Shown here in pieces: positions 54,573-64,000 of a stretch of DNA of 64,000 nucleotides. Position numbers and translations under genes: made by a program. Numbering within the stretch: the first letter of the stretch is position 1; every line of letters begins with the position of its first letter. The DNA is from a virus. The notes under the pieces were generated by a model. It worked only from the letters and a program-made list of their open reading frames with translations. It searched no databases and had not been told where the DNA came from. Location: positions 26,317 through 90,316 of the IMG/VR virus record IMGVR_UViG_3300025131_000014, one strand, 5' to 3'.

Positions 54573-56624
54573 TTATTTTGCATACATTTTTTTCATATTA
54601 TCTAATAAGAAGTCTACTACTATATTTGTTGGTGCTTCTTGATCTATTTCTTTCTCAAAATCTTCTTCGACCATAAACATTAATTGCATAAATCCCATGA
54701 CCCTGTCAAAGTTTCCCTGTCTTGAATAGTTTATTAGCTCTTCTACAAGAGCAATTGATGGAATTAGATCCATATTATATATTATTTCATCATCTGAATT
54801 AACTCCTCTTTCTGTCCATAGCCAACGCAAGATATATTTTTCTCCTGCATCTTTCATTCTGTCATTCATATGACAGCCTTTCATTCTTGCTACAGTACTG
54901 TTCTTAATTACTTTAGAGATCACATTATCAGGTTGATCTGCTAGAAAATGTAGTTTGCCTCTTCTTTTGAAATAAGAAAGAACTTCACCTCGATCATTTT
55001 CAAACATAATCTTTGCATCTCCGTAGTATTGCGAAAGCATTTCAAGGTTCTTATGATATATCTCTATATTCTCGGGCCTTCCTACATATTCAGCTACAAT
55101 CTCATCATAACCAAAATCAAATTTATTAAAAGATTTATAAACAAAGGCAGCATTTAAAGACTTTCCTCCAGCCTTATCGAAAGCTACAGGGTCAAGTCCA
55201 ATCTTATAAAGACCATGAGGGATAGTAGAAGGAGGATGTTGGTAAACAATTACACATCCTTGTTGAGGGTCATTTGGTTTGTGCGGGTATTTTGTAATGG
55301 GGTGGAGTTTGTTCTCCATATCCATTTCGAATTTAACAGGATGATCTGTATTATCGCTTCTTACAAATGTTCCTGGGTCTCCTAATTTTTTATATTTATT
55401 ATCTGACTTAAGTCTATTAAGTACTCGATAAAGCTCAACTACTGGAAAGACTGCACCTTCAGGTCTAAGGAATGCTTCTTTCGGTGTTTTTGGATGCTGG
55501 GTTATGAAAAGATTATAAGCTACAGGCTCTACTGCTTTTTTTTCTTCTCTTTCCAGATCTACATCATTAGTTGCTTCTGCACGTAAATGATTCCCTGCTT
55601 TGTCTACAAAAGGAGGTCTATACCATTGTTCATCTACAAACCATCCACACTCTCCAACAGTATTCTCATCATATATATTTTCGTAAGCTCTTAGTCCGTA
55701 AAACGATGGGTTATAAAACATTTCTTCGAAGTCAAAGTTAGTGCCGTTCTTTGAGTTACCGCCTGTACCATAAATGATCGGTATACCTACCATTATATTA
55801 CCATCTTTGAAAAGCGGATAGGATCTTTGATATGCTTGAAGTAATCCAGGCCAGTCTCCTGCTTCTTCAAAAAGCATGCGTTCTGCAGTTCGTCCTACTG
55901 ATTTTTGCGGGCTGTCTTTAAAAGAAAGTGCTAAGATCTCAGATTTATAACCTTTTTGTACTTGGATCCCATCTCTATTCTTTTCTATATATCCGCTCTT
56001 TATGGTTTCCTGCCTGTCGGTCAAGAAGCCTTTAGCCCAATCTGTATTATCATTAATGAAGTTGATCATTGATTTGGCCATCTCCATTGTATTAGACCAG
56101 AATGTCTTTTCAAATGCAGCTAGTATTGATATAGAATACGGAAACCAATTGTAACGCCAAACCATGCCAAAGGCATTTTTATAGGAATAACCTTTACGCC
56201 GTGCTTTAACGACTATCATTCCTTCACCAGCTTTCTCTGCTTTATCCAGTTCATGATACCAGTAGTAATCCATATCCAAGAATCTTGGAAATGTTTCTAT
56301 TTTTCGTTGTCGTTTTCCTTGTCCGACTGTAGCCAAAATCCTACCATAATTAAGATAAGCGTAATGCTCACCCGTAACAGTAACTCCTCCCACTGTATAT
56401 CCATTCTTACATCTCTTTTCTTCTCGATCCCAAAACTCTATAAACTCTGTTGTACCTGGAGGAGCTAGAGTATAACATTTATGCTTAAGATAATGTTGAG
56501 CAGAAAGAGAAAAGTAGCTAGTATTGACAAACTTAAGATAATCAGTACCTGTATGACGTATTGGATTATCCTGTTCTTCAATATTAGTATGTTTAGTTGC
56601 TACTATTATCTTTTCATTTTTCAC
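54573..56624 (-). CDS. terL: Terminase large subunit (packaging ATPase and nuclease)
   Basis: 683 residues. The ATPase half carries a deviant Walker A (ARRKGYSYKN, residues 141-150), as in crAss-like TerL, and a Walker B with catalytic Glu (MLFEEAGD, 250-257). The nuclease half shows an Asp in YKIGLDPVAFD, a MFENDRGEV segment and a final acidic position in FDRVMGF near the C-terminus, consistent with an RNase H-fold nuclease. The protein pumps DNA into the head and cuts it. The portal gene follows; the endolysin gene is directly upstream. Confidence 0.92.
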   Translation of the reverse strand: MKNEKIIVATKHTNIEEQDNPIRHTGTDYLKFVNTSYFSLSAQHYLKHKCYTLAPPGTTEFIEFWDREEKRCKNGYTVGGVTVTGEHYAYLNYGRILATVGQGKRQRKIETFPRFLDMDYYWYHELDKAEKAGEGMIVVKARRKGYSYKNAFGMVWRYNWFPYSISILAAFEKTFWSNTMEMAKSMINFINDNTDWAKGFLTDRQETIKSGYIEKNRDGIQVQKGYKSEILALSFKDSPQKSVGRTAERMLFEEAGDWPGLLQAYQRSYPLFKDGNIMVGIPIIYGTGGNSKNGTNFDFEEMFYNPSFYGLRAYENIYDENTVGECGWFVDEQWYRPPFVDKAGNHLRAEATNDVDLEREEKKAVEPVAYNLFITQHPKTPKEAFLRPEGAVFPVVELYRVLNRLKSDNKYKKLGDPGTFVRSDNTDHPVKFEMDMENKLHPITKYPHKPNDPQQGCVIVYQHPPSTIPHGLYKIGLDPVAFDKAGGKSLNAAFVYKSFNKFDFGYDEIVAEYVGRPENIEIYHKNLEMLSQYYGDAKIMFENDRGEVLSYFKRRGKLHFLADQPDNVISKVIKNSTVARMKGCHMNDRMKDAGEKYILRWLWTERGVNSDDEIIYNMDLIPSIALVEELINYSRQGNFDRVMGFMQLMFMVEEDFEKEIDQEAPTNIVVDFLLDNMKKMYAK

Positions 56625-57347
56625 TTAACTTTTTTTACTTAAGTAGTATATTGCATCCATATGTGCATCTGCTATTCTATCTCTTATATCTTCATTCAAA
56701 AGCATTGCTGCTTCTGTACTATTTGTCATGAAAAAATTCTCAGTTAACACGGCAGGCATAGCTGTTTTCTTTAAAACATAAAAATCTGCTTCCTTATCAG
56801 GATCTTTATCTGTATGATCCTTACGCATTTTTTCTTCTGGAAATTCAGCTGCCATCATTCTATAAAATATAGTAGCTATTTGGTCTGATCGTGTTTCTCC
56901 TTTTGAAGTATAACAAGACCATCCATGAGCTTGATTCCAATTATTACCAAAAGCATTTGCGTGAACACTTAGATAAACTGCCCTTTTATCAACTTTATAA
57001 AAATCATTAGCACGTTTTACTCTTTCCTTTAAAGAAATATCTTCTTCTTCAGGAACAAGTACTATTGAGTCTATACCTGCTGCATTGCATGCACTATCAA
57101 TTCTTTGTACAACGGCCCTGTTAAATTCGCCTTCATACAGGACAGTGCCATCTTTAAATTTTGGAGATCTTTTTCCTGCAGTTTGATATTCTCCGTCAAT
57201 CATGCCGCCATGCCCAGGATCTAATAACCAAAGATATTTTGATTCATTTTTAGATTTATCTTCTATTTTAAGATCCATATCCATAACTATATATTTTCTT
57301 ATAAAAGTTCTGTAATGCCATATAAGTCTATTTATAATTGTTAGCAT
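56625..57347 (-). CDS. N-acetylmuramoyl-L-alanine amidase endolysin (Amidase_3), 240 aa
   Basis: The catalytic domain shows all expected residues: LLDPGHGG with zinc ligand His46, YEGEFN with ligand Glu74, LSVHANAF with ligand His129, and VLTENFF with catalytic Glu203. It cuts the amide bond between N-acetylmuramic acid and the peptide stem at the end of infection. There is no cell-wall binding domain. The first Met gives a 36-residue leader with a hydrophobic patch; Met22 or Met24 are alternative starts. It sits far from the holin and spanin candidates near 35 kb but on the same strand. Confidence 0.88.
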   Translation of the reverse strand: MLTIINRLIWHYRTFIRKYIVMDMDLKIEDKSKNESKYLWLLDPGHGGMIDGEYQTAGKRSPKFKDGTVLYEGEFNRAVVQRIDSACNAAGIDSIVLVPEEEDISLKERVKRANDFYKVDKRAVYLSVHANAFGNNWNQAHGWSCYTSKGETRSDQIATIFYRMMAAEFPEEKMRKDHTDKDPDKEADFYVLKKTAMPAVLTENFFMTNSTEAAMLLNEDIRDRIADAHMDAIYYLSKKS

Positions 57348-57358
57348 TTTGTTTTCTT

Positions 57359-57907
57359 CTACTCTGGGTCTTCTCTATTTCCTTTAAGTCTTCGGCCTCT
57401 GAGTGTTGCAGATTGTGCAACTTCTTTCTCAACCTGTTCTTTAACTTTATTCAGTGATTCTATAATTGGTCCTATAGATTTAAGTGCAGATGTTACATCT
57501 GACGGTTTATATATAGGCTTGTCATGTTTATCACGATCATGCAAGTTAATAGTTTCTAAGTAATTTGTCAAGTTACTTATTGTTTTTAATGAAGCTTTAA
57601 GTAGCCTCATAGACGGCGTTTGTTGCAGTTCTATATATTTAGCTATAGCCGCTGCTATTTCTTTATCGGGTTTGTAGTTAGGATCTTTCATAAAATCCTT
57701 AGCTACAATATTCTGTGTCAGATTAGGATCAGCACTTTGTATATAAGGTGACTTATAATCTGTAGTAAAGTATACGTAACTTAATTCCCGTATAGCTTTT
57801 TCTTTATCTTTTTTCTTGTCTCGGTCCCAGATAGCTTTGAATTCTGGAACTAGCAGTGCTTTCGTATGAACAATTACTCTTCTTTTTTGTAAGTCAAACA
57901 GATCCAT
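57359..57907 (-). CDS. Conserved helical protein upstream of packaging genes, 182 aa
   Basis: A basic, all-helical protein (IVHTKALLVPEFKAIWDRDK near residue 12; KPSDVTSALKSIGPIIESL near 132), ending in a charged tail. Its place two genes before the terminase large subunit makes a small terminase subunit an obvious candidate, but I see no diagnostic helix-turn-helix. It overlaps the upstream zinc-ribbon gene by 14 bases. Confidence 0.55.
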   Translation of the reverse strand: MDLFDLQKRRVIVHTKALLVPEFKAIWDRDKKKDKEKAIRELSYVYFTTDYKSPYIQSADPNLTQNIVAKDFMKDPNYKPDKEIAAAIAKYIELQQTPSMRLLKASLKTISNLTNYLETINLHDRDKHDKPIYKPSDVTSALKSIGPIIESLNKVKEQVEKEVAQSATLRGRRLKGNREDPE

Positions 57908-58298
57908 TTTCTTCTGTTTTTCCCCATTTACCTAATGGACATTCTTTATCCTTTACATATAATGCTGCAGGAAATGCACATCCACACTTTCCACATTTAT
58001 ATCCTGCTAAATCATAATCATCATTTCTGCCTACTTCTCTTTTGACTTGATTAAGCTCTATTTGTCCATTTCTCATTACTTTACTTGTAATGAACTTCCA
58101 AAATTGAGAAGATTTTAATTCAGGACATTTAGTACATATCTTTGCACGGTAATCTGCTATTGCTTGTATTTCAGGATTTTTATTTCCTTTAGCATAAATA
58201 GACCATCCTTCAATTATTTGAGCAGCAGTTTCTCCTGCTTTTTGAACACTAGCTACTACTTTCTTCGCTTTGCTCTTTTTTCCACAACCGCATCCCAT
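57894..58298 (-). CDS. Zinc-ribbon-like protein, 134 aa
   Basis: It begins MGCGCGKKSKAKK. The C-terminal half holds CTKCPE (near 55) and CGKCGCAFPA with a later CPLGKW, so four or more cysteines could form one or two zinc ribbons. This cysteine arrangement recurs in proteins of Bacteroidota phages, to my knowledge without an assigned role. A DNA or RNA contact function is possible. Confidence 0.55.
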   Translation of the reverse strand: MGCGCGKKSKAKKVVASVQKAGETAAQIIEGWSIYAKGNKNPEIQAIADYRAKICTKCPELKSSQFWKFITSKVMRNGQIELNQVKREVGRNDDYDLAGYKCGKCGCAFPAALYVKDKECPLGKWGKTEENGSV

Positions 58299-58304
58299 AA
58301 TGGT

Positions 58305-58454
58305 CTATCCATTTAAAGCAGGTCCTTTCAAACTACTTTTCTTAGGAGCTTTTCCTTTCTTTGATTTAGGAGCACTTGTACGTACAGTACTTCCTCCTTT
58401 AGGAAATCCTTGAGATCTATTCTTAATATATTTTAAAAATCTTACAAATGGCAT
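58305..58454 (-). CDS. Basic micro-protein, 49 aa
   Basis: ATG at 58454, TAG at 58305-58307. The protein starts MPFVRFLKYIKNRSQGF and is Lys/Arg/Ser-rich (APKSKKGKAPKKSS). It ends 6 bases before the zinc-ribbon gene and starts 15 bases after the small lipoprotein gene. The charge suggests nucleic-acid binding. No family recognised. Confidence 0.5.
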   Translation of the reverse strand: MPFVRFLKYIKNRSQGFPKGGSTVRTSAPKSKKGKAPKKSSLKGPALNG

Positions 58455-58469
58455 AATAATTAGTTTTAG

Positions 58470-58613
58470 TTAATAATCATTTTCTTCTTCTTTTGGAGGA
58501 GGCACAAAATCTTCTGACATTTGTATCCCATTCCAGTATACGCATCCTTGCCTATTACACGAAATTAAGTAGACGCATAATAATACCATGCAAAAGATAC
58601 AATATTTTTTCAT
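58470..58613 (-). CDS. Small lipoprotein, 47 aa
   Basis: ATG at 58613, TAA at 58470-58472. The protein has a Lys-Lys start, a hydrophobic segment and a lipobox (YLISC) with Cys19, then a 28-residue acidic tail with PPP. This is the form of an outer-membrane lipoprotein such as a small outer spanin or a superinfection-exclusion lipoprotein. Its start codon overlaps the stop of the upstream 55-residue gene as ATGA. Confidence 0.6.
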   Translation of the reverse strand: MKKYCIFCMVLLCVYLISCNRQGCVYWNGIQMSEDFVPPPKEEENDY

Positions 58614-58777
58614 ACAAATCTTTTAACTCTCTCATATTTCTTCATTATTTCTGCTTCCAGATGCTTTCTATTTATCTTTTCACATTCCTTTATATACTCT
58701 GGATTCCACTTTTTCTTAATTGGATCTCCAGGAGTATGAAACTTTTGTGCTAACTGTTTTATTTCTTCTGCTGTCAT
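58610..58777 (-). CDS. Charged micro-protein, 55 aa
   Basis: ATG at 58777, TGA at 58610-58612. The sequence is helical and Lys/Glu-rich (MTAEEIKQLAQKFHTPGDP, then KKYERVKRFV). Overlaps as ATGA with genes on both sides suggest translational coupling. No function recognised. Confidence 0.55.
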   Translation of the reverse strand: MTAEEIKQLAQKFHTPGDPIKKKWNPEYIKECEKINRKHLEAEIMKKYERVKRFV

Positions 58778-58842
58778 AATAATCTTATTGTACCTATGCT
58801 TGTTTCTACTGTTACTGTTTTTACTTCTTCCTCTTTACCCAC
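58774..58842 (-). CDS. Possible 22-aa peptide gene (GTG start)
   Basis: A GTG at 58842 opens a 22-codon frame ending in TGA at 58774-58776, which overlaps the next ATG as ATGA. It also overlaps the end of the 46-residue gene in another frame. The peptide is Glu/Lys/Thr-rich. The neat overlap is the only support, so this could be chance. Confidence 0.25.
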   Translation of the reverse strand: MGKEEEVKTVTVETSIGTIRLL

Positions 58843-58961
58843 TTATCTCTTATTTTTATCTGCATCTCGCATATTGCAATATTGATCTTGACATTCTGTC
58901 TATCGCTTTGAGTCATACATGGTGCTTTCTGTAATTTTTTAATTAATTTTTCCAAGTACAC
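58821..58961 (-). CDS. Basic micro-protein, 46 aa (GTG start)
   Basis: A GTG at 58961 shares its first base with the last base of the TAG stop of the upstream gene. The frame ends in TAA at 58821-58823. The peptide is helical and basic (YLEKLIKKLQKAPCM at the start, DKWVKRKK at the end). It fills a gap that would otherwise be non-coding and keeps the tight spacing of the operon. Confidence 0.45.
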   Translation of the reverse strand: MYLEKLIKKLQKAPCMTQSDRQNVKINIAICEMQIKIRDKWVKRKK

Positions 58962-59215
58962 TATTTCCCTTTTTTCAATTGAGGGTATTTTCTATGTACA
59001 CAAGCTTTTAGTTTTCCTGGGTTAGGTGCATTATGTGCCAACTTCAACGCAGACTTTGCTCTTTTCAATGTGTTTGTAGGAAAAGTACCAGCTGGTGCTC
59101 CTCCCGCTGGCCCGCAAAAAGATTTAACTCCTTTATATTTACCTGCATTAGAACCTCCTGGTTTCTTACGAGCTGTTTTTGTCTTTGCACTTACTTTTGA
59201 TTTCTTTTTAGCCAT
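58961..59215 (-). CDS. Lys-rich conserved crAss-like protein, 84 aa
   Basis: The N-terminal 20 residues are almost all Lys, Ala, Ser and Thr. A motif SFCGPAGGAPAGTFPTNT (residues 32-49) is followed by a helical ALKLAHNAPNP and KACVHRKYP. I know this motif pattern from Bacteroidota phage proteins, without an assigned role. The basic tail suggests DNA or RNA binding, perhaps in the virion. It overlaps the upstream gene by 8 bases. Confidence 0.6.
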   Translation of the reverse strand: MAKKKSKVSAKTKTARKKPGGSNAGKYKGVKSFCGPAGGAPAGTFPTNTLKRAKSALKLAHNAPNPGKLKACVHRKYPQLKKGK

Positions 59216-59510
59216 TACCTTTAGATTTAAATCCTATTATAATTTTTTCATTTACTATTCTCTGCTTTAGTTTCTTCAGTTTGTAGTAATCATCTTTAAC
59301 CACTAATGTTATAGGCCTTGTCTTATGATGTATTCTACATTGACCTTTCTTTATCCTTCCTTTATCATCAAAATGTTGTTCTATTTCTATAGTAGACAGA
59401 TCATCACATAGCCACCTTGTAATTATATTCTTTTTTACAAGCTGTTCCTTACCTTCTTTGTCCTCATCGTATAGGTTTGTTACCACCTTGAATTCGTGTG
59501 AAGTGTTCAT
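59208..59510 (-). CDS. Small conserved phage protein, 100 aa
   Basis: A mixed alpha/beta soluble protein (ITRWLCDDLSTIEIEQHFDD near 30) with a Lys-rich C-terminal half. It overlaps both neighbours, including 47 bases with the IHF-like gene, so a later start is possible. No motif identifies a function. Confidence 0.5.
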   Translation of the reverse strand: MNTSHEFKVVTNLYDEDKEGKEQLVKKNIITRWLCDDLSTIEIEQHFDDKGRIKKGQCRIHHKTRPITLVVKDDYYKLKKLKQRIVNEKIIIGFKSKGNG

Positions 59511-59832
59511 TCTTTTTTTTATATTCTAATTTCTCATTAACTTTCCTATTCCGTATCTCCCACAGTCTTGCCAGCTCTTCTTTAGCTGATTCGCTGTACA
59601 AGTTAGGATTTTTTCTGAAACTTTTTATAAGATTCCTTATTAAAGCAGTCAGTCTCTCTAGCTTTACTTCAAAGGTTCCAAGGCCATGAACCTTAATGGA
59701 ATTAAGATCATTATCTTCCATTCTTCTTTTAATAAATCCAAACTGATGCCTTATTGCACTTTCTACTTTTAGATAACTTATCCCTTTCTCCTTTGCAAGC
59801 TCTCTGGCAATATCCTCTATCTTCTTACTCAT
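59464..59832 (-). CDS. IHF/HU-like DNA-binding protein, 122 aa
   Basis: Residues 1-60 follow the HU/IHF N-terminal helix pair (MSKKIEDIARELAKEKGIS) and the strand VHGLGTFEVKLERL (about 48-61) matches the conserved GFGxFxVxxR turn of the family. The usual DNA-embracing arm region is replaced by a Lys/Arg-rich helical extension. IHF-like genes next to the packaging block are a hallmark of crAss-like genomes. Likely DNA bending or compaction. Confidence 0.7.
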   Translation of the reverse strand: MSKKIEDIARELAKEKGISYLKVESAIRHQFGFIKRRMEDNDLNSIKVHGLGTFEVKLERLTALIRNLIKSFRKNPNLYSESAKEELARLWEIRNRKVNEKLEYKKKNEHFTRIQGGNKPIR

Positions 59833-60193
59833 CCTCTAATTCGAATTTGAAAACAAGTTCAATATCCTTAGTATCTTTAGGGACTTCTATCCTCTTATTT
59901 ATTATCAGCTTACCTGTGTCCTCATCCTTTAAGAGTACACCTTTCTGTTTCATATACTTTATATAATTATCCAAGTTTGAGTAAGACTTAAACTTAAACT
60001 TATCCCGTATATACTTCCTACATTGTGTCCCGAATCTATCTTCTTCTATGAGATCTCCTTCTAGTTCCATGAAGGCCGATAGTATCTCTATTTCTTTTGA
60101 TGTCAGAGGTTCAGGAAGTATCACATTTATCAATTGAAGATATTTGCTATAGAACTTGTTCCTGGCTACTCTTTCTTTCTTTTCTCTCTTCAT
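59825..60193 (-). CDS. Basic helical protein, first gene of the minus-strand late unit, 122 aa
   Basis: A Lys/Arg-rich N-terminus (MKREKKERVARNKFYSKY) is followed by helices with a winged-helix-like feel (LTSKEIEILSAFMELEGDL, then SYSNLDNYIKYMKQKGVL and two short strands). That layout suits a DNA-binding regulator, but no certain family is visible. It overlaps the IHF-like gene by 8 bases and borders the divergent control region. Confidence 0.5.
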   Translation of the reverse strand: MKREKKERVARNKFYSKYLQLINVILPEPLTSKEIEILSAFMELEGDLIEEDRFGTQCRKYIRDKFKFKSYSNLDNYIKYMKQKGVLLKDEDTGKLIINKRIEVPKDTKDIELVFKFELEDE

Positions 60194-60522
60194 TATATTA
60201 ATGATAGGTTTCTGTAAACTTACTCACTTTAGAGCATAATACAAAATATTATAGAAACTTAATTATAGTTACATTCGTAGATAGATCACCTTATCCCCCC
60301 CGCATGTGATTTTGAATTCCCATTTAAAACTTCAGTAACTGAAGAACTCCATAAGTTTTTAATTAAGTAATATAATAGATGACCAGGCGTAGCAGCCCTA
60401 CTTCATTTAACCATCTTATTTTCATGGTAGGGTGTCCTAATCTCTCTCTTTAATCAGTATCGCAATATAAAAATAAATATTTTAAAAAAAAAATAATGTG
60501 AAAATATTCGAGTTCTTGAGGG
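60194..60522. promoter_or_regulatory. Divergent control region between minus and plus transcription units
   Basis: 329 bases without a gene. Contents: an AT-rich stretch beside the minus-strand start with TATAAT-like sequence, a run of seven C (about 60295-60301), a perfect 6-bp hairpin with a 3-base loop (CTTCAG-TAA-CTGAAG near 60332-60346), a pairable CCCTAC/GTAGGG set near 60395-60430, and a run of ten A (60484-60493). Promoters for both directions must lie here, but I find no full Bacteroidota consensus. Confidence 0.5.
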
Positions 60523-60621
60523 TCTCTATTGGAATCATCCCCAATGGTAAGAGAGCGGTCTAATCCCCGCGAGTCTGTACCATGAACCTAGGTTCGTGTA
60601 ATACAGGCGAGGCACTGCGCC
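60523..60621 (+). promoter_or_regulatory. Structured leader of the first plus-strand gene
   Basis: Consecutive stems lead to the ATG at 60647: TCTCT/AGAGA (523-527/550-554) with ATTGG/CCAAT inside; GCGG/CCGC (555-558/567-570); CATGAACC/GGTTCGTG (581-588/591-598) enclosed by CTGTA/TACAG; and GGCG/CGCC (606-609/618-621). One T-G pair fits a plus-strand RNA. It could act in translation control, protection of the 5' end, or processing. Confidence 0.6.
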
Positions 60622-60646
60622 AAGCAGATACTTAAATCCGAACGTT

Positions 60647-61099
60647 ATGAAAGATTTAATTCAGTTGGTTGCTATTCGCTTGTCGAATAATCCAACAAAA
60701 GCAGTCATTGATGCAGTAGACGGCATTGATGGCAAGCTGAATGAAACTTCCGACGGTCGTGGGTACTATCTTGCTGTCTTCAAAGATGCCAACAACCCTT
60801 TTGCTGAAATGCGTACACGCATGATTTCACAGCAATTGGACTCTGATGGCAATCCTTCGTGGAAAGCTGGAACACCTAGCATGATTGCAAAGTTCGTAGG
60901 GCGTACAATGCCTGGTTCTATTGTGACAGCTACGGTTGAACCCTATATGATTGGCAATAACGAACAGACCGTTTATACGACTGTTGTACTTGGTTCCGAA
61001 ACCACTGCACAGGCGTTCAAGCGTGCTGGCCACGTTCTTGCTGTCGATAGGACTGAAGTGCCCTTCACCGAAGAGGAGTTGCAGGATGCGAAAGAATAG
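60647..61099 (+). CDS. GC-rich plus-strand protein, possible OB-fold, 150 aa
   Basis: The only sizeable plus-strand gene in the window. It has noticeably more G and C and more C/G-ending codons than the late genes, so it may be highly expressed or of other origin. The protein has GRGYYLAVFKDANNPF (38-53), MISQQLDSDG and FVGRTMPGSIVTATVEPY, alternating strands that resemble an OB-fold. I recall similar small proteins in Bacteroidota phages without firm function. Position suggests an early gene, possibly a target of the ejected polymerase. The stop lies within a terminator stem. Confidence 0.65.
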   Translation: MKDLIQLVAIRLSNNPTKAVIDAVDGIDGKLNETSDGRGYYLAVFKDANNPFAEMRTRMISQQLDSDGNPSWKAGTPSMIAKFVGRTMPGSIVTATVEPYMIGNNEQTVYTTVVLGSETTAQAFKRAGHVLAVDRTEVPFTEEELQDAKE

Positions 61100-61120
61100 G
61101 CGAAAGCCTGTTCTTTTTTT
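61094..61120 (+). terminator. Intrinsic terminator overlapping the stop codon
   Basis: An 8-bp stem (61094-61101 with 61106-61113, one G-U pair) closes a GAAA tetraloop and is followed by seven T. The TAG stop at 61097-61099 lies inside the 5' arm, so the last ribosome position and hairpin formation compete. Confidence 0.85.
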
Positions 61121-62280
61121 CAAATAAGACGAAAATCATTGTGATTTCCCATCAAGAGCACGTCCTAGTGTTCAATCACATCATTTTAATAAGATTTAAG
61201 TATTATGTTATTATAACACATAGTTATATTATAGCATAACAAGACATTGTTCTTCCTTAACAGAGGACGAACGAAGAGTGCCGTGTATGCATAGTTATGG
61301 CTAACATTTAGTTAGTCAACAAAGCTATGATACATTTGAGTGCACAGTTATTGTGGTCTTTGACTTAACCGAAAGGTATGCAAGTAACCAAACTTGTAGT
61401 TTGTCAAAGTAAAGCAATGATATCTGTAATCCTATGTAAGTATCAGCGTGGTAATAAGCGCATGGTCTGCAGTCATGTTGGTGTGACGCATAGGTAAACA
61501 AAATATGATGTGTGTTGTTAGAGCCGACAAAAGTGCGTAAGTCTTTAGTTCCTCGCCAACAAGCCATTGACTGCTCCATAGGGAGGATAGGCGCGAGGAC
61601 ACACGACATCAATTTATGTATTGTCATGCTTTCATTAACCGCATGAATATCCAGTAAGTTACTGGCGATGACAACTATCAGTAAAGTTGTGTTTTTCTTT
61701 AAGGTTTGCAAACCTTGACAAGCTTGTGGGGCTACAAGATACTTCTAATTAATCCTGTTCCACGTCCAAAATCGCACCATGGTGTAAGTAGGACTATTAG
61801 GGATTAATATGTGCAGAAATGGCGGGAGCTATAAAAGTATTTAATTATAAGTTTACTTCGGTAAATGAGTAATTATCACAATGTTTTAATATATGACTTA
61901 GCGGTTATATTGAAGAGATATTGTGCTGTTAGTGCGGATGTAAAAATCAAGCAATTATAAATCTAGGACGGTAAACTAGATGGAAGTTATTCTTGCAAAT
62001 AACTTGGTGATGGTAAAGTATATCACCGAAGCGACCTATCTATAGCCTCCGAAAAGAGAGGTTTTCAACTATAGATACTATTCCTGTACTGTTGAAAAGT
62101 ACATACAACTATTCAGGTTGGGTAATGCACGGCTAGGTTAATTCGTGGAATACGTTGAGGAGATCTATATGTCATAAGGGTCTCGCTTTGCATTATTTTA
62201 AACTATAAAACTTTAACAAACCCATGTCAGGGCATAGACATGGTAACATCATCAACATTACCAGAGTGTTTTTTCTTTTT
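61121..62280 (+). ncRNA. Large structured RNA region (one or more ncRNAs)
   Basis: No convincing gene in 1.1 kb, but stem-loops follow each other without gaps. Examples: 61206-61241 (two nested 6-bp stems); CTTTGAC/GTCAAAG at 61358/61403 enclosing two hairpins, one with a GAAA loop; CCTATG/CATAGG at 61431/61489; a 10-bp stem 61506-61515/61601-61611 enclosing CCTCGC/GCGAGG; TTGTCAT/ATGACAA at 61621/61668; 61701-61716 palindrome; TTAATCC/GGATTAA at 61749/61801; a UUCG hairpin at 61851-61866; 8-bp 61984-62005; 9-bp 62037-62077; TAATGCA/TGCATTA at 62123/62189. Several G-T pairs and both tetraloop types fit only a plus-strand transcript. Function unknown. Confidence 0.7.
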
Positions 62281-62354
62281 CCATACCTGACGGTTGTAGT
62301 AAAATGAAAAAAAGATATATGTTTTCGGTTTTAACTCTGTAGAAGGAATCTCTA

Positions 62355-62395
62355 GGTGTAGTCTTCGGACTATATCTTTAGGTTTTTTAGTTTTC
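62355..62395 (+). terminator. UUCG-capped hairpin with T-run, probable terminator
   Basis: A 9-bp stem (62355-62363/62368-62376, two G-T pairs) closes a TTCG loop. A T-run (62383-62388) and further T-rich sequence follow. The G-T pairs become A-C mismatches on the other strand, so it acts on plus-strand RNA. It probably ends the structured RNA ahead of the 78-residue gene. A weaker hairpin with T-run lies at 62242-62280. Confidence 0.6.
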
Positions 62396-62425
62396 CTAAC
62401 GTTAACCATTTAAATTGTTTCAATT

Positions 62426-62662
62426 ATGCTATTTGAAGATAAAGTATATGAATCAATAACAACTTATTTAGCCCAATATGGATGGACACAAAGTAGCATG
62501 GGATCCTATTTTAAAAAGGCACCTGATGGAATGAGAAAAAAGATAAATATATCTGTTACTGCTAATAAATTAGGTGTATGGCTAGATGAAAAACATGGCG
62601 GATACTTCTCCTTATTTGATATGGAAGAGAATAAGTTATTGATTTATTTCATTAAACATTAA
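62426..62662 (+). CDS. Small protein embedded in the structured-RNA locus, 78 aa
   Basis: The only plausible gene between 61.1 and 64.0 kb. The protein has natural composition (MLFEDKVYESITTYLAQYGW, then INISVTANKLGVWLDEKHGG) with a helix followed by three or four strands, like small single-domain phage proteins. No signal peptide or membrane segment. It lies 30 bases after a terminator candidate and is followed by a strong hairpin. Function unknown; an RNA-binding partner of the flanking RNAs is conceivable. Confidence 0.6.
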   Translation: MLFEDKVYESITTYLAQYGWTQSSMGSYFKKAPDGMRKKINISVTANKLGVWLDEKHGGYFSLFDMEENKLLIYFIKH

Positions 62663-62669
62663 TATAATT

Positions 62670-62700
62670 ACTGCCAAACAAGAGTTTGGTAGTAGTTATT
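62670..62700 (+). terminator. Hairpin terminator after the 78-aa gene
   Basis: A 10-bp stem (62670-62679/62684-62693, one G-U) closes the 4-base loop AAGA, 7 bases after the stop codon. The following TTATTTT is a modest T-tract, so termination may be partial and the downstream RNAs may derive from the same transcript. Confidence 0.55.
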
Positions 62701-62923
62701 TTACTAACTTTGTTAGTCGTGGTTTGAGCCACGTTAAATAGTGCTTTAAGCTCAAAGCGTTACATAATTGTAGGGGCAATCGTCAGGAGTTGGCAGCGTA
62801 GACACTAATGTAGTGAATGCTGTAGGTATCCGAAATGTTTAACAAACATCCTTTGATTTGATGAAGTATAGTAATCAAAACATAAAATAGGACACATATT
62901 TAATGATGCGTAAGCATACATTA
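62701..62923 (+). ncRNA. Tandem hairpin array
   Basis: Stem-loops in close succession: ACTAAC-TTT-GTTAGT (62703-62717), CGTGG/CCACG (62718-62733), GCTTT/AAAGC (62743-62758), GCAGCGT/ATGCTGT (62793-62823, two G-T pairs) enclosing CACTA-ATG-TAGTG, ATGTTT-AAC-AAACAT (62835-62849), TTTGATT/AATCAAA (62852-62879), and TAATG-ATGC-GTAA-GCAT-A-CATTA (62901-62923), with a GNRA tetraloop. No open frame of note. Role unknown. Confidence 0.6.
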
Positions 62924-62926
62924 GAA

Positions 62927-63048
62927 TAAGGAACTGATAGCAAACATTTATTGACCTAAATGGGTATCGCATGGTGATGTATGCGCAGGAGTATTATACT
63001 CTGTTAGATTAAGTAAGTCATCATAAATGATAACAGAATCGTTCCTTA
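62927..63048 (+). ncRNA. Multi-helix RNA domain closed by an 8-bp stem
   Basis: TAAGGAAC (62927-62934) pairs with GTTCCTTA (63041-63048). Inside are four helices: CATTTA/TAAATG (62945/62957), CGCAT/ATGCG (62968/62981), GAGTA-TTA-TACTC (62989-63001) and CTGTTA/TAACAG (63001/63031). The domain is therefore a five-way junction of 122 bases, a layout expected of a folded ncRNA and not of random sequence. Confidence 0.65.
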
Positions 63049-63322
63049 AAAAAATAACAAGGTTGTTTGATAAAACTATTGTTGAATCACCACTGCCGAG
63101 AAAGATAGTAGGCACCAATTAGTAATATGTTATGTATTACCATATTCATTAGAGTCAGCTGCAACTGTTAATGAATTAATGATAGCACGAAATGCAAAAA
63201 TGGCGTTATCAGATTGGTTAAAAAGTGACGAGATGTACCAGGCTTCTAGAAAGCGGACAATAGGATGAGTCTTAATTATATATGAGAGGATAGTCTCAAA
63301 TGTAATTCCTTGTTTTTAAAAT
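63049..63322 (+). other. ORF-poor stretch with further stem-loops
   Basis: No gene. Hairpins include GTAATA/TATTAC (63122-63140), TTCATTA/TAATGAA (63145-63175) and TGATAGC/GTTATCA near 63180-63212 (one G-T). It looks like a continuation of the structured-RNA locus. Boundaries of individual RNAs cannot be set from sequence alone. Confidence 0.45.
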
Positions 63323-63391
63323 AGAGCCAAGCAAGACTGGAACAACACTGTTGTTGACTATTAATATGTCATCACAGTGCCAGGTGCTCTT
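63323..63391 (+). ncRNA. Twin RNA element, copy 1
   Basis: Helix P1 AGAGC/GCTCT (63323-63327/63386-63390), a 9-base junction CAAGCAAGA, helix P2 CTGG/CCAG (63337-63340/63380-63383), and the 2-base junction GT. Inside P2 lie hairpins AACAAC-ACT-GTTGTT (63341-63355) and GAC/GTC (63356/63368). The same P1 and junctions occur in copy 2 at 63482. Confidence 0.65.
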
Positions 63392-63481
63392 TAAACTAAG
63401 GAGGTTTAACTACTCACAACTGCAGTTGTAGAAGTAGAGTTGTAAGAGTAATTACTTATAGCTGTATCTCCAGATATAACG

Positions 63482-63568
63482 AGAGCCAAGCAAGACGTGC
63501 AATTTAAGGAACAGATGATGTAGTGGTTTTTTCCACGATTATTTATGACGTTCTGGCACGGTGCTCTT
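63482..63568 (+). ncRNA. Twin RNA element, copy 2
   Basis: P1 AGAGC/GCTCT (63482-63486/63563-63567), junction CAAGCAAGA and junction GT are identical to copy 1. P2 is CGTGC/GCACG (63496-63500/63556-63560), different bases but still fully paired. Internal helices are CAGA/TCTG (63512/63552) and GTGG/CCAC with a T6 loop (63523-63536). Conserved junctions with compensatory stem change are strong evidence of a selected RNA fold. Confidence 0.65.
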
Positions 63569-64000
63569 AAGACAAAAGACCTATAACCAATAGGCATCGT
63601 GTTATATATTATAGCACAATCATTAAATTAGCACAAGCAAAGTCGTTACGAAAGAATCTCGAGTTTGTTACCATCTCAAAACCCAACGGGCCAAAGGACT
63701 GATGTGTAAAGGAAAGTTAGTATTAAATGTATTGTACAAAGCATTTAATCATCCAAGATAAGAGCAGCAATGCCATGACTATCTGTAGCTATTATAAGAG
63801 CAATCTTTAGCGGTAACAAGTACTATGTCAAGATCACATCCAGGGAAACCGCAAGTCGTAACTATGAGAGTGAGTAAGCAGGCAACAAATGTTTTTTTGT
63901 TGGTCAGTGTTCTGAAAGGATACTGTAGGCTTTGCTGTGCTTCTTTTTGATATTAACAGAAAACAATCGCTTTGTAATCCTGTTAATATGTATACATTAA
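63569..64000 (+). other. Structured-RNA locus continuing to the window end
   Basis: No gene in 430 bases. Stem-loops seen: CCTAT/ATAGG (near 63579-63593), ATTAAATG/CATTTAAT (63722-63749), CAACAAA/TTTGTTG (63883-63902), and a perfect 10-bp ATATTAACAG/CTGTTAATAT (63950-63989) with an inner ACAA/TTGT. The locus does not end within the window. Confidence 0.5.

Follow-up and report, generated by a model that had tools for sequence, protein, structure and literature searches.

A putative polycistronic RNA island with Hatchet and Pistol ribozymes in a crAss-like phage

The structured region at positions 61121-62400 of the viral DNA analysed here is best explained, with a probability of roughly 0.7 as judged from the sequence, as part of a polycistronic RNA island in which self-cleaving ribozymes would cut one transcript into units. 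The region would form the first part of a noncoding RNA gene island of about 5 kb with which the rightward arm of a crAss-like phage begins. The island carries Hatchet and Pistol ribozyme motifs and conserved, covarying domains whose order is shuffled between phages; the record also has a GOLLD RNA on this strand, and Hatchet-bearing phages share a location upstream of the terminase, on the strand opposite to it.

Hatchets are known mostly from metagenomes, and no report of them in crAss-like phages was found in the literature, as covered by open-licence papers. The viral Hatchets found here have a constant location in crAss-like phages, in the vicinity of GOLLD, tmRNA, tRNA and RAGATH RNAs. 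That Hatchet and Pistol define the termini of ornate phage RNAs is a testable proposal, and X, M1, Y, alpha/beta and E are new conserved RNA families for work on structure and function.

Methods

The window is the whole stretch of 64,000 nucleotides analysed, corresponding to positions 26317-90316 of a virus record of 90,316 bases (G000). Relatives were collected via the terminase and DNA patterns. The Hatchet 3' core was searched for with exact patterns in one viral collection, yielding 22 viral contigs. Folding z-scores of individual segments were obtained for the plus and minus strands with 60 shuffles per segment, and shuffle and slide controls were applied to domains Y and M1.

Results and discussion

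Setting and noncoding character of the region

The large terminase subunit (TerL) is about 35% identical to those of crAss-like phages and of phages of Flavobacterium psychrophilum, with Crassvirales records among the matches, in agreement with the original prediction of a crAss-like phage. Genes run leftward up to 60193, beyond which the 150-aa ORF opens the rightward arm; a homologue of this ORF sits directly downstream of GOLLD in relatives. The absence of a convincing gene, also predicted, is borne out between the 150-aa and 78-aa ORFs, where no credible gene was found, and the latter is the single further plausible ORF from 61121 to the window end. Neither ORF had a match in Pfam or PHROG. 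Minus-strand ORFs over the region were rejected, the homologous blocks being rearranged in relatives. Another public contig corresponds to window positions 54647-62156 at 99.99% identity, and a direct DNA search of annotated phages returned no matches. A conserved intergenic motif, CTTATCCCCCCCGCATGTGATTTTGAATTCCC, is present between the divergent arms (60279-60335) and in five other records.

The plus strand of 61130-62129 folds at -279.7 kcal/mol against a mean of -239.3 kcal/mol for dinucleotide shuffles (z -5.55), as compared to a z of -2.59 for the minus strand, which upholds the prediction of a structured plus-strand region. Values for 61121-61278 are -4.6 (plus) and -1.6 (minus), and those for the domains are given in Table 1; as judged from the latter, M1 and Y are backed by covariation and not by energy. 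The long-range enclosing stems that had been described hold within domains (X, Hatchet P2/P3), with X, M1 and the Hatchet each having its own outer closing helix, but helices joining different domains in the single-sequence fold are unsupported in relatives. Nor does the region end at 62400 as proposed, since structure and conservation resume beyond the 78-aa ORF and extend up to 64000. The terminator placed at 61120 is a weak candidate, a short hairpin with a T-run that the terminator scan did not report. Rfam matches to mir-308 and snoR100 were rejected as chance.

Table 1. Features of the putative RNA island and their positions in the window
Feature	Position	Strand	Basis or remarks	Folding z (plus / minus)
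150-aa ORF	60647-61099	+	first gene of rightward arm; 45% identity to L044 protein	
Weak terminator candidate, short GAAA hairpin (4 bp) then T-run	61098-61120	+	sequence; absent from terminator scan output	
Domain X, CCTTAACAGAGGAC hairpin and multi-way junction	61202-61505	+	block 79% identical in G001	-2.7 / -0.7
Domain M1, about 107 nt, closing helix UGAUGUGUGU / ACACGACAUCA	61506-61611	+	84-89% in G012, L044	-1.2 / -1.7
Domain Y, hairpin with conserved UUUCNNNAACC loop and CCAGUAAGUUACUGG hairpin	61611-61697	+	4 sequences	-1.2 / -3.1
Hatchet self-cleaving ribozyme (predicted), long P4 insert	61695-61952	+	RF02678, 48.5 bits, E 4.4e-8	-2.3 / +0.2
Hatchet tail, conserved structured 3' extension	61953-62254	+	L058 homology; compensatory pairs	-2.8 / -2.2
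Terminator candidate, UUCG hairpin with U-run	62354-62377	+	terminator scan	
78-aa ORF	62426-62662	+	between Hatchet and Pistol ribozymes	
Pistol self-cleaving ribozyme (predicted)	62718-62779	+	RF02679, 49.3 bits against cut-off 34.5	
Domain Z	62882-63058	+	85% block in G001, there directly after Y	-3.3
Motif alpha, first copy (GAGCCAAGCAAGAC ... GGUGCUC)	63319-63396	+	also G001, G012, L103	
Domain F	63402-63469	+	G001 and L102	
Motif beta, second copy, longer, with alpha's frame	63479-63573	+	G001, L102 at 90-95%	
Domain E, about 430 nt	63572-63998	+	G001, record start, part of L103	

Hatchet ribozyme and its tail

The original prediction had proposed a check against all Rfam models. In the Rfam search, Pistol is the one RNA found in the window at gathering thresholds, while the Hatchet was seen at a relaxed threshold, 2.5 bits under the Rfam cut-off of 51 bits, which is a curator's score line and not a structural feature. 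The low score accompanies the long P4 insert, and the homologous block in L058 lies over the cut-off (56.1 bits). As in the Hatchet family, the conserved core (ACAA...UGUGGGGC and GUGCRGAYGUWAAAAUCA), the C-U dinucleotide at the base of P1 (C61697-U61698) and the P1-P4 layout are present. Core variants are shared with accepted Hatchets; the 3' core, GTGCGGATGTAAAAATCA, is identical in L094, an 82-bit Hatchet. The site of Hatchet cleavage has been located (PMC4604424, PMC6154101), and by homology the cut is predicted between C61697 and U61698, where the -1 base is C, the same as in tested Hatchets.

The window copy differs from other family members in its score and in the span from the 5' to the 3' core, which is 231 nt as against 187 nt in L058 and 74-163 nt in twelve other viral Hatchets, and also in carrying a conserved, structured tail of 300 nt. 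The Hatchet and tail (61699-62254) are 81% identical to L058, in which they are continuous, and the Hatchet block contains three two-sided changes. A viral scan with the tail DNA matched only L058 and a near-identical contig.

Domains X, M1 and Y

Stems maintained by compensatory changes, on which the original prediction depended, were found in X, M1, Y, E and the Hatchet block. Three pairs of domain X are changed on both sides, and its core motifs also occur in L044. In M1, which has 33 pairs, 99 of 99 cells are paired with three two-sided changes; in Y (the window, G001 twice and L107), all 48 pair cells are standard and four of the 12 pairs show two-sided changes. Slid controls showed no such changes for either domain. 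Since the compensatory evidence comes from only 2-4 sequences per domain, these covariation statistics are supportive and not final. Scans of bacterial and archaeal genomes for M1 found none, and none of X, M1, Y, Z, alpha, F, beta and E matched a family in Rfam.

Pistol ribozyme and downstream domains

The Pistol lies outside the coordinates of the original prediction. It is over the family cut-off, but the expected G-U at the cleavage site is replaced by G62774-G62775 in the cmscan alignment, with G for U 3' of the cut, which is predicted near 62774/62775. Further downstream, alpha and beta have a common outer frame (GAGCCAAGCAAGAC...GGUGCUC), and their inner stems are compensatory (CUGG/CCAG against CAGG/CCUG in alpha, GUGC/GCAC against AUGC/GCAU in beta). 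Matches to AGAGCCAAGCAAGAC at four other loci were dropped as chance, the 3' half, GGTGCTCTT, not being nearby.

Domain E shows seven two-sided changes, and a second variant of it occurs at record positions 19-453. The first 455 bases of the record are 89% alike to the last 447 of the window (63554-64000 against 1-455, L072), which may mean either that the genome is circular and its ends overlap, with differences between strains, or that domain E is present twice.

Association with GOLLD

The record carries GOLLD on the plus strand at 1859-2244 (206 bits), where it follows at a distance of about 2 kb when the record's ends are crossed. Whether these ends overlap or domain E is duplicated, GOLLD is downstream on the same strand. 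The region itself had been suggested to be possibly GOLLD or ROOL, which was not confirmed: the conserved 3' domain of GOLLD (RF02032) was not found in 61100-64000 at E <= 5, and the Rfam model of ROOL, a large phage noncoding RNA often located near tRNAs (PMC12286853), was unmatched at the same threshold. The region resembles GOLLD as large ornate noncoding RNA of the same phage, strand and island, and ROOL as large phage noncoding RNA, but it comprises several domains and not one RNA, with no sequence or structure match to GOLLD.

GOLLD was found over the cut-off in G000 and nine of the 36 further records searched, and also at loci L007 and L044. In G002, a Pistol is directly adjacent, by its 3' end, to the first GOLLD hairpin, and in L007 it ends about 50 nt before that hairpin; this placement agrees with ribozymes defining the termini of ornate RNAs through 5'-end processing.

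Genomic position of Hatchets among phages

The 22 contigs with the Hatchet 3' core include a near-copy of the window, L058 and twelve with full Hatchets over the cut-off; the other eight pattern matches were dropped as they lack the 5' core. A TerL homologue is present in ten of the twelve, the remaining two being fragments of 36 and 23 kb, and each of these ten has its Hatchet 7-15 kb upstream of the terminase, on the other strand. The window (5.1 kb) and L058 (5.0 kb) show the same arrangement. Among the ten is NC_055898 (phage cr115_1; Crassvirales, Suoliviridae), whose Hatchets surround a tRNA-Leu and precede a tmRNA where the rightward arm begins. RAGATH-9, RAGATH-20, permuted tmRNA and tRNAs are found at other Hatchet loci. 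The RAGATH RNAs (RF03146, RF03048) are structured RNAs of mostly unknown role that occur near the Hatchets of crAss-like phages, but none matches domains X to E. Ten other Crassvirales or related phages, isolates included, showed neither Hatchet nor GOLLD, with NC_055898 as the positive control for Hatchet; the arrangement is therefore not universal in the order.

Modularity and the proposed mechanism

Conservation across relatives comes in blocks, namely X, M1, Y, the Hatchet block with its tail, Z, alpha, F, beta and E. The window order is X-M1-Y-Hatchet-(ORF)-Pistol-Z-alpha-F-beta-E. G001 has X-(ORF)-F-M3-Y-Z-alpha-beta-(ORF)-E and a second Y but lacks both ribozymes; the island as such can therefore do without them. 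M1 occurs with alpha in G012 and was found in L044; Y occurs alone in L107; the Hatchet block with its tail is followed by M3 in L058; F and beta occur in L102, and alpha with part of E in L103.

These observations, together with the predicted ribozymes, suggest the following model, in which both transcription and actual cleavage are inferred from the sequence. A long plus-strand transcript would comprise the 150-aa ORF, X, M1, Y, the Hatchet with its tail, the 78-aa ORF, Pistol and later parts, namely Z, alpha, F, beta, E, small ORFs and GOLLD. Hatchet cleavage yields 5'-OH and 2',3'-cyclic phosphate ends, and a cut at 61697/61698 would release an X-M1-Y RNA with a 2',3'-cyclic phosphate end. 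The Pistol cut, about 1.08 kb further on, would create a new 5' end for a Z-to-E RNA. The ribozymes would thus be processing sites giving separate stable RNAs from one transcript, with the domains inherited and exchanged as cassettes. The released domains would act in trans, most likely on the host translation or RNA apparatus, on which the tmRNA and tRNA neighbours also act; these neighbours and the reported binding of GOLLD to the ribosome (PMC12286853) point to the translation apparatus as a possible target. A broader proposal is tentative and at present somewhat doubtful. It holds that crAss-like phages maintain a dedicated RNA-cassette island whose many folded RNAs (X, M1, Y, Z, alpha/beta, E, GOLLD, tmRNA) are unrelated to one another, are exchanged in the manner of genes, are freed by self-cleaving ribozymes and work jointly during infection, and that each would represent a new functional class of RNA.

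Counted against the island are the U-run hairpin at 62354-62377, which might terminate transcription ahead of the 78-aa ORF, the Hatchet score, the G for U in Pistol, the modest covariation, the lack of ribozymes in G001, and the ten phages without Hatchet or GOLLD.

The small ORFs interspersed among the domains, here and in G001, would also suit cis-acting leaders, with the structures and the Hatchet controlling the stability or translation of the adjoining mRNAs (150-aa and 78-aa ORFs). This explanation is unlikely, however, in view of the same domains lying beside different ORFs or none across phages, at distances from the start codon that are not fixed.

Slightly less probable still is a single uninterrupted giant ornate RNA of about 1.2 kb, a new GOLLD/ROOL-like class with the Hatchet built in, which develops the interpretation originally suggested. 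A contiguous, strongly folded plus strand and the GOLLD of the same phage are consistent with it, and the latter preserves the notion that this phage carries a giant ornate RNA. Nevertheless, domains that occur singly or reordered in relatives argue against one fixed RNA, which would keep its order; the Hatchet cut would split such a molecule at 61697, and the cross-domain helices find no counterpart in relatives.

The direct passage from Y into Z in G001, with Hatchet, ORF and Pistol all missing, could suggest a self-excising insert, released by the Hatchet on the left and Pistol on the right as a 1.08-kb piece with the 78-aa ORF. An RtcB-like ligase could join the flanks or close a circle; Pistol leaves the same kinds of end as Hatchet. 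However, G001 also lacks the stretch of about 119 nt that separates the Pistol cut from the homologous right flank. Excision would therefore leave a scar, and scarless ribozyme excision was rejected; as the Hatchet block of L058 also has a different setting, self-excision is improbable. A chance Hatchet match in ordinary AT-rich intergenic sequence or decayed genes, for which the score under the cut-off and the moderate single-domain z-scores might speak, is already contradicted by the conservation of noncoding blocks (about 75-95%) across diverged phages, by compensatory changes and by the continuous, above-threshold Hatchet block in L058, and can practically be set aside.

The polycistronic island thus remains the preferred reading.

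tmRNA-like domains and shared motifs in related islands

ARAGORN and Rfam found no tmRNA or tRNA in the window; the islands of relatives have them. A tRNA-like domain of about 83 nt, scored by Rfam as tmRNA and with no room for the mRNA part, occurs in L073, L044, L079, L102 and L103. It lies from 0 to more than 1 kb before GOLLD, and the idea that it always sets the GOLLD 5' end was rejected on account of this range. In L022, L053 and L078, GOLLD is followed on its own strand, after about 1.5-1.7 kb, by a full-length tmRNA match, with tag peptides read by ARAGORN in the first two. In five Hatchet-bearing phages, the terminase genes contain 5-13 in-frame TAG codons, which may be read as a sign of TAG recoding. 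The motif AACCCCT[CT]CTAT recurs in the islands of L079, L044, L058 and L081, with two copies each in L079 and L044. The hairpin CCTATAAC[AC]AATAGGCA (63580-63597; also L073, L079, L102 and L103) is found at varied island positions in five phage records.
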